DNA of 36,023 nt. Origin: Candidatus Saccharimonadota bacterium. Its GTDB lineage: Bacteria > Patescibacteriota > Saccharimonadia > Saccharimonadales > UBA10212. Shown here in pieces: positions 27,987 through 35,108 of this stretch (positions are counted from its first letter, which is position 1; each line of letters starts with the position of its first letter). The stretch covers positions 1 to 36,023 of the forward strand of contig JAICWR010000005.1 in assembly GCA_025934715.1 (NCBI GenBank). The letters run 5' to 3'. The position numbers and the translations under genes are program-made. The notes beneath the pieces were generated by a model. It did not search any database and had not been told where the DNA came from. It saw only the letters and a program-made list of their open reading frames with translations.

Positions 27987-28098
27987 CAATTTTGCGTATC
28001 GGGGCGCTAGCGACCGTACGCAAAATTGAGAGGAGAAGGCGAGGCCGTAAGTGAGCGAATTCAGTAGCTCACGGAAGCCGTTGCCTCGACTCCGACGA
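27987..28098 (+). ncRNA. Candidate structured tRNA leader element, copy A (upstream of tRNA-Lys)
   Basis: 12-bp perfect stem CAATTTTGCGTA/TACGCAAAATTG with 18-nt loop TCGGGGCGCTAGCGACCG, then AGAGGAG, second hairpin GTGAGC/GCTCAC, then CTCCGACGA abutting the tRNA. Homologous element at 35050..34933 (-). Confidence 0.6.
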
Positions 28099-28175
28099 GG
28101 GCCCATAGCTCAGTTGGTTAGAGCAGCGGCCTTTTAAGCCGCGTGTCGTGGGTTCGAATCCCACTGGGCCCTCCA
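28099..28175 (+). tRNA. tRNA-Lys(TTT)
   Basis: GGGCCCA acceptor, D-arm GCTC..GAGC, anticodon arm GCGGC-CTTTTAA-GCCGC, T-arm GTGGG-TTCGAAT-CCCAC, TGGGCCC, encoded CCA. Confidence 0.97.
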
Positions 28176-34856: not shown

Positions 34857-34932
34857 TGGTGGGGAAGGCAGGATTTGAACCTGCGACCAATCGGTTATGA
34901 GCCGACTGCTCTAACCACTGAGCTACTTCCCC
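34857..34932 (-). tRNA. tRNA-Met(CAT) (elongator-like; Ile2 not excluded)
   Basis: Minus strand GGGGAAGTAGCTCAGTGGTTAGAGCAGTCGGCTCATAACCGATTGGTCGCAGGTTCAAATCCTGCCTTCCCCACCA; anticodon CAT, encoded CCA. Confidence 0.95.
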
Positions 34933-35050
34933 TCGTCGGAGCCGGGGCAATGGCCTCCATAAGCGCACTAACGTTTGCTTATTACAGCCTCGGCCCGTCT
35001 CCTCCTCTCAATTTTGCGCACGGTCGCTAGCGCCCCGATGCACAAAATTG
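34933..35050 (-). ncRNA. Candidate structured tRNA leader element, copy B (upstream of tRNA-Met)
   Basis: Minus strand CAATTTTGTGCA-TCGGGGCGCTAGCGACCG-TGCGCAAAATTG, AGAGGAG, hairpin ATAAGC/GCTTAT, GGAGGCCATTGCC, CTCCGACGA abutting the tRNA; same order as copy A. Confidence 0.6.
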
Positions 35051-35108
35051 CCAAAGCTACAGGGGTAATTATATCAGCTACAAAGATAAACTATATAATA
35101 GATATTAG

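Follow-up and report, generated by a model that had tools for sequence, protein, structure and literature searches.

Positions 34,933–35,050 of the window, the whole 36,023-nucleotide stretch of Candidatus Saccharimonadota DNA that we analysed, hold a 118-nt element on the minus strand (copy B) directly upstream of a predicted tRNA-Met (CAU; 34,857–34,932, minus strand). Read along that strand, the element begins with a hairpin, H1 (35,009–35,050), whose two 12-nt arms (CAATTTTGTGCA/TGCGCAAAATTG) form a 12-bp stem that shows covariation (see below) around the 18-nt loop TCGGGGCGCTAGCGACCG (35,021–35,038). The core motif AGAGGA (35,003–35,008) follows, then a 65-nt hairpin domain of type 1, D2, delineated by folding and covariation (34,938–35,002), and finally GACGA (34,933–34,937), which stands against position +1 of the tRNA at 34,932. 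A TATAAT hexamer 17 nt before H1 (35,068–35,073, minus strand) matches the −10 consensus and is presumed, from this match, to mark the promoter of leader and tRNA. Covariance model R1 matched copy B with an E value of 2.4e-24, which is not an independent value, since R1 was built partly from copy B.

All the parts named in the preliminary description were found in place: the arms, the loop, AGAGGAG, ATAAGC/GCTTAT with a loop that differs from that of the other copy, GGAGGCCATTGCC and CTCCGACGA, the last of which lies directly against tRNA-Met. The ATAAGC/GCTTAT hairpin, described there as the second hairpin of the element, is present but constitutes only the inner stem of D2, the base of which closes right at the tRNA and is extended by GAGGA and GACGA. 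These two segments may pair as G·A, A·G, G-C, G·A and A·G, that is, as two G·A/A·G tandems around a central G-C, directly on the acceptor stem of the tRNA. Copy B has a folding energy of −51.7 kcal/mol (z −3.65) when its first two bases are omitted, and with tRNA-Met the energy is −89.6 kcal/mol (z −5.4); of six copies from the same genome that were folded, five had z scores between −3.4 and −5.5, and the copy before the initiator-type tRNA-Met had a z score of −2.2.

A second element, copy A (112 nt; 27,987–28,098, plus strand), lies directly upstream of a predicted tRNA-Lys (UUU; 28,099–28,175, plus strand), and its loop (27,999–28,016) is the same as that of copy B over all 18 nt. The window holds these two exact matches to the loop, where 0.06 would be expected at up to three mismatches, and two matches occurred in none of 100 shuffles of the window.

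Copies in the genome of the window

Using R1, which was built from 11 leaders, and further reading of the sequence, we located 12 copies in the genome to which the window belongs (G000, completeness 94.85%): nine at tRNA 5′ ends, one at the tmRNA, one inverted at a tRNA 3′ end and one orphan. The leader stands before 9 of the 46 tRNAs predicted by ARAGORN, and 37 are leaderless; this recurrence before further tRNAs bears out the proposal that the element acts as a tRNA leader. The tmRNA copy (L071, 430–546, minus strand) is followed on the next base of the same strand by an Rfam tmRNA match (31–429; 93.5 bits), the inverted copy (L171) stands against the 3′ end of tRNA-Thr(CGU), and the orphan (L001) adjoins an htrA-like gene at its 3′ end. 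With up to two mismatches, the 18-nt loop occurs at six places in this genome: before tRNA-Lys, the elongator and initiator types of tRNA-Met, Pro-UGG and Pro-GGG, and in one orphan. The suggestion that the loop might be limited to tRNA loci therefore holds at five of these places and fails at the orphan.

A perfect TATAAT precedes H1 by 16–19 nt in six of the nine tRNA leaders of this genome, and in leaderless tRNAs with a perfect TATAAT the hexamer lies 10–15 nt before +1, a spacing which indicates that the element comes in addition to a short native leader and separates it from the tRNA. The proline loci can be compared in the same way, with TATAATTACCCCTGTTGG running directly into the tRNA at Pro-CGG versus TATAATTACCTCTGTTGCTTTTC, then the element, then the tRNA at Pro-UGG. 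From the junction at +1 of the tRNA or tmRNA, and from the RNase P RNA encoded in the genome (Rfam match, L006), we infer that RNase P releases the leader.

Beside the leader, tRNA 3′ trailers of this genome (L005, L165, L181, L185, also L172) share a second repeat directly after CCA, a CGCATC/CGTC... hairpin with the loop CAATCAAGTGG, forming a second, 3′-trailer family.

Covariation and distribution of the leader family

The 18-nt loop is not a family invariant: a search of 40 relatives returned one match with two mismatches (in G011), which had neither a hairpin nor a tRNA. As the loop is not common to relatives, the structure was followed with covariance models, and relatives were found to have the same architecture with other H1 loops. 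The layout, over about 110–130 nt, is H1, AGAGGA, D2 and GACGN immediately before the tRNA, with D2 types that differ among copies. By a simple rule, 80 leaders were chosen from 215 distinct tRNA/tmRNA records; they cover tRNAs of 16 amino acids, and, as the loci were mostly fetched for containing a match, they carry no information on prevalence. In these leaders, H1 pairs 1–12 are formed in 74–80 of 80 and the first four D2 pairs in 66–77 of 78, and the core motif reads AGAGGA in 73, AAAGGA in six and AGAGGC in one. The leader ends in GACGA in 65 and in another GACG-type sequence in 15 (GACGAA in four, GACGC in four, others in seven), with variation in the last base and in the spacing to +1; in two of the 80, D2 is reduced to 13 and 16 nt.

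Several familiar motifs did not fit AGAGGA/GACGA: a K-turn, as there is no 3-nt bulge; a hammerhead, as there is no CUGANGA/GAAA; and, for AGAGGA, a Shine-Dalgarno sequence, as the base that follows it (G in copy B) is not constant. A bidirectional terminator was likewise set aside by eye, the U-rich arm of H1 lying usually on the 5′ side and no T run following H1.

We then consider covariation. In an alignment of 88 distinct rows, which was fitted to the structure of the model and so favours that structure, and which includes some loci twice and two opposite-strand echoes (L015 1639–1744, L055 1577–1675), 93.0% of cells were paired versus 72.6% in shuffles. Double changes occurred in 34 of 36 pairs, with 577 double-change cells versus 175 in shuffles, and the covariation score was 0.486 versus 0.177 (none of 500 shuffles as high; slid controls 0.04–0.09). 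The central G-C between GAGGA and GACGA has three A-U replacements in this alignment. In H1 pairs 9–13, which lie outside the selection rule, G-U outnumbers A-C by 41 to 8, indicating that it is the tRNA-sense strand that folds, and the matches found by the model show the same direction. The element thus has the covariation and sense-strand folding of a structured cis-acting RNA.

These data bear out the earlier proposal that selection on an RNA structure, and not recent duplication, is at work, including its remark that copies A and B adjoin differing tRNA bodies, Lys versus Met. An ordinary duplicated tRNA leader, having neither function nor mobility, would account for two identical loops within one window, but it is contradicted by the compensatory changes that genomes of the phylum show in almost all pairs, and different tRNAs and different D2 types also speak against it; we consider it barely credible.

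Copy B is almost certainly a member of a real and deeply conserved RNA family that has no Rfam match. In Rfam 15, nothing above gathering fell in the element, either in the window, scanned at gathering, or in 28 loci scanned up to E values of 10, 1 and 0.5; on the opposite strand of the L190 copy, an overlapping RF00512 match reached 30 bits versus a gathering score of 50. The family, so far uncatalogued, consists of structured RNA elements of Saccharibacteria and of other bacteria of the same phylum. The element is found in at least 15 of 16 genomes of the taxonomic family (R1, E up to 1), at least 56 of 294 of the order (R1, E 1e-4, strict filters), at least 84 of 392 of the class (R2, E 0.001, strict filters) and, sporadically, at least 29 of 379 sampled genomes from other classes of the phylum (R2, E 0.001, strict filters), both models having been built from sequences that they then recover. 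Among seven outgroup records, R2 gave no match at E 0.001 or better, and two at 0.17 and 0.62. The pattern CAAAATTGAGAGGAG..GACGA, searched over genome contigs, gave 33 stretches, of which 26 lie in Candidatus Saccharibacteria; in the other seven, which belong to other taxa, the H1 5′ arm was absent from the flank examined, and, being family-specific, this pattern does not test other phyla. Carriage by phages found no support, two patterns over viral contigs giving three and zero matches, the three being coding-like by eye and having no tRNA.

In Saccharibacteria, relatives with other loops precede tRNAs of nearly every amino acid, each genome carrying the element before a different subset. 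Sixteen order-level loci comprised 12 against an intact tRNA, two against an interrupted tRNA and two without a tRNA at the match; of 14 loci taken from the scans of class and phylum, ten of them outside the order, ten lay within 3 nt of a tRNA 5′ end and four were inverted at a 3′ end. The element also precedes tmRNA in L126 (67.2 bits), where the tmRNA begins on the next base, and in L195 (48.5 bits), where the model starts 18 nt further from the element. All tmRNA calls come from Rfam, ARAGORN having given none, and the G006 tmRNA was recognised by similarity to L126, having no Rfam match above gathering.

Such conservation raises the main rival to the mobile element proposed below, namely a pre-tRNA/tmRNA leader useful to its host, which we regard as a realistic possibility, if a somewhat doubtful one. 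In one version, the GAGGA/GACGA helix would stack on the acceptor stem and control or assist RNase P cleavage; in another, the H1 loop would sense a ligand. In both, loci would gain and lose the leader by recombination. Deep conservation and covariation, the sense orientation of most copies and the presence before tRNA and tmRNA alike are in keeping with it, tRNA and tmRNA both being RNase P substrates in known bacteria. So is the H1 loop, better kept than the upper stem among eight copies of the window's own genome (mean pairwise identity 0.84 versus 0.68), though the lower stem stands at 0.89. Against a useful leader, 37 of the 46 tRNAs of that genome manage without it, D2 can shrink to 13–16 nt (2 of 80), and H1 loops are freely replaced.

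The small invariant core beside a processing site, with about ten near-invariant bases between three helices, could alternatively be that of a self-cleaving ribozyme freeing the tRNA 5′ end. This seems very unlikely, given that both the final base and the distance to +1 differ among leaders (GACGA in only 65 of 80), that the leader has no Rfam ribozyme match and that the genome encodes RNase P RNA.

Inverted copies, orphans and presence at orthologous loci

The matches listed for three well-covered genomes (G000, G004 and G006), a few G004 and G006 rows with E values of 1e-4 to 0.005 among them, amount to 45 copies. Thirty-five of these stand in sense at tRNA 5′ ends, two at tmRNA, two before a tRNA 5′ fragment and one inverted at a 3′ end, and five are orphans; opposite-strand H1 echoes were removed from all counts. 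Another 29 less clear matches comprised five at a tRNA 5′ end, one before an interrupted tRNA, six inverted at a tRNA 3′ end, seven at protein-gene ends and ten without assignment.

In all, 12 copies were found inverted at tRNA 3′ ends, a figure that includes the six less clear ones. The GACG end is kept in seven (Thr-CGU in G000, G015 and G007; Ser-UGA in G009; Thr in G351; Glu in G382; Gly in G383) and altered in five (Phe in G005 and G007, Gly in G012, Ser in G001 and Arg in G009). Among the copies examined, none was seen with the GACG end pointing away from the adjoining tRNA end; the copies of L090 and L190 are oriented divergently to a nearby tRNA that they do not adjoin. A variant inverted element, with a GCTTAA-like start after CCA or a stop codon and a changed GACG end, was observed in L106, L036, L230, L202, L225 and L269.

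Orphans also occur between convergent protein genes. In G001 and G008, one lies between convergent prmC-like and htrA-like genes (named from reading of the translations); with its counterpart beside htrA in G000, it looks like a case of vertical retention. Orphans that adjoin an htrA-like gene at its 3′ end occupy L001 1414–1530, L193 390–505 and L194 363–479, from three genomes, and the stop codon of the gene comes from the element in L193 and L194. The orphans of L190, L203 and L229 have GCGGYCAGTCA in common shortly after GACGA, perhaps another RNA; the L190 orphan with this sequence had no Rfam match above gathering.

From the copies at tmRNA, inverted at tRNA 3′ ends and between protein genes, it follows that the element is not solely a tRNA leader. 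That copies with an intact core, inverted or orphan, have no tRNA to serve weighs against a host-useful leader. A dispersed repeat, the case named in the preliminary description as one that would refute it, has gained ground insofar as a mobile, dispersed character is now likelier, but the repeat is a structured RNA and not a featureless one.

Similarly, presence of the element varies between orthologous sites, as expected of a mobile element and at odds with a leader that its tRNA needs. Between G008 and G013, of one genus, three of five compared tRNA loci differ: at Gly the element is in G008 only, and at Trp and Met in G013 only. It is present in both at Val and Ala, although in G008 a tRNA 5′ fragment stands between the Ala copy and the full tRNA. 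At Gly, G013 retains CCGACGC before +1, so that losses could account for part of these differences. An element or GACG end, a tRNA 5′ fragment and then a nearby complete tRNA were also observed in L274 239–523, L272 400–539 and L081 99–214.

For 65 leaders from 14 genomes, the closest relative stood before another tRNA of the same genome in 17 (5.8 by shuffling), before the same tRNA in another genome in seven (2.9 by shuffling) and elsewhere in 41, showing that leader sequences group neither by the tRNA they precede nor, for the most part, by genome. Neither target-site duplications nor terminal repeats were recognised by eye at the loci inspected.

A possible mobile element and its mover

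We propose, at a little under even chances, that the family is a non-autonomous mobile RNA element that resides in pre-tRNAs as their leader and is probably released by RNase P. Counting for mobility are the restriction to 9 of 46 tRNAs in the window's own genome, the differences between G008 and G013, the 12 inverted copies, the seven orphans at protein-gene ends and the same-genome nearest neighbours, although these last could also come from gene conversion. Against it, the sense bias at tRNA 5′ ends (35 of the 45 copies listed) exceeds that of random insertion; the orphan kept beside htrA in three genomes and the lack of a mobilising enzyme in G000, described below, also speak against it. 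The tRNA promoter would drive transcription of the element within the pre-tRNA, and the leader, folding on its own, would allow tRNA maturation to proceed. RNase P would cut it off at the boundary between GACGN and +1, so that tRNA promoter and RNase P would serve its expression and release. It would spread between tRNA ends and gene ends and may be lost again by deletion, leaving the tRNA unharmed.

As for the mover, neither a reverse transcriptase nor a Y1 transposase is supported, both being absent from the window's own genome: despite its 12 copies, it has no RVT_1, found in 3 of 16 family genomes, and no Y1_Tnp, found in 8 of 16.

A DNA-level element of the REP or MITE kind, in which a folded single DNA strand is moved in trans by an HUH or other transposase and transcription is incidental, is in our view unlikely. 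REP/BIME elements with RAYT (Y1) transposases are short, folded, multi-copy and extragenic, and often lie between convergent genes, as do some of the orphans here; inverted copies, the Y1_Tnp genes of half the family genomes and the stability of tandem G·A pairs in DNA as well would suit this origin. It sits badly with the lack of Y1_Tnp in G000, with G011, which has seven Y1_Tnp matches and few copies among the matches listed, and, in a further difference from REP/BIME elements, with the sense bias at tRNA 5′ ends and the precise junction with mature RNA ends.

Within the mobile reading, a bacterial SINE-like retro-RNA is an improbable but specific variant. tRNA-derived SINEs are small non-autonomous elements tied to tRNA transcription, a likeness to the element here, which differs in standing before the tRNA and in not being tRNA-derived itself; moreover, G000 lacks the reverse transcriptase that such a retroelement would use. 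RNase P cleavage of the pre-tRNA would free a leader with a 3′-OH at GACGN, onto whose 3′ end an occasionally resident reverse transcriptase might jump. A jump after copying of a mature tRNA would yield the element in sense before that tRNA, and priming by a tRNA or mRNA 3′ end would yield an inverted element after tRNA-CCA or a gene 3′ end. Such a step would by itself account for the orientation of the GACG end towards the tRNA or gene end, for the targeting of tmRNA and for the succession of a leader, a tRNA 5′ fragment and a full tRNA.

No such tRNA leader was found described among the open-access papers searched; a study that reportedly presents 224 candidate RNAs lies outside that scope. 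The LOOT RNA motif, reported from Latescibacteria, OD1, OP3 and TM7, resembles the leader in being a structured RNA from overlapping bacterial groups. LOOT is given about 43 pairs in six helices (PMC7657543). By that description, its six helices would set it apart from the leader, which has no Rfam match, though the Rfam release scanned may lack LOOT. TRE5-A of Dictyostelium is a tRNA-targeting retroelement that inserts near tRNA genes as a safe site (PMC5006619, PMC5391098). The likeness lies in insertion at tRNA genes; TRE5-A is an autonomous retrotransposon at a distance from the tRNA, whereas the element here is bacterial, about 120 nt long and joined directly to the mature end of the tRNA. 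T-box riboswitches are similar as structured leaders with tRNA involvement, but they stand before protein genes, such as those of aminoacyl-tRNA synthetases, and the tRNA is bound in trans; here the downstream gene is itself a tRNA, and the leader has no Rfam match to the T-box.

A folded RNA fused to the 5′ ends of many tRNAs and of tmRNA, in several classes of one phylum, is unusual under both main readings. If mobile, it would be a bacterial element that depends on tRNA transcription and possibly RNase P, with a life-style comparable to that of elements in yeast and Dictyostelium that seek out tRNA genes. A use to the host would mean that these bacteria control tRNA maturation through a leader, which to our knowledge is known in no other bacteria.

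In two loci, L019 and L021, the tRNA-Met behind the leader contains predicted introns of 604 and 208 nt, respectively, probably group I.
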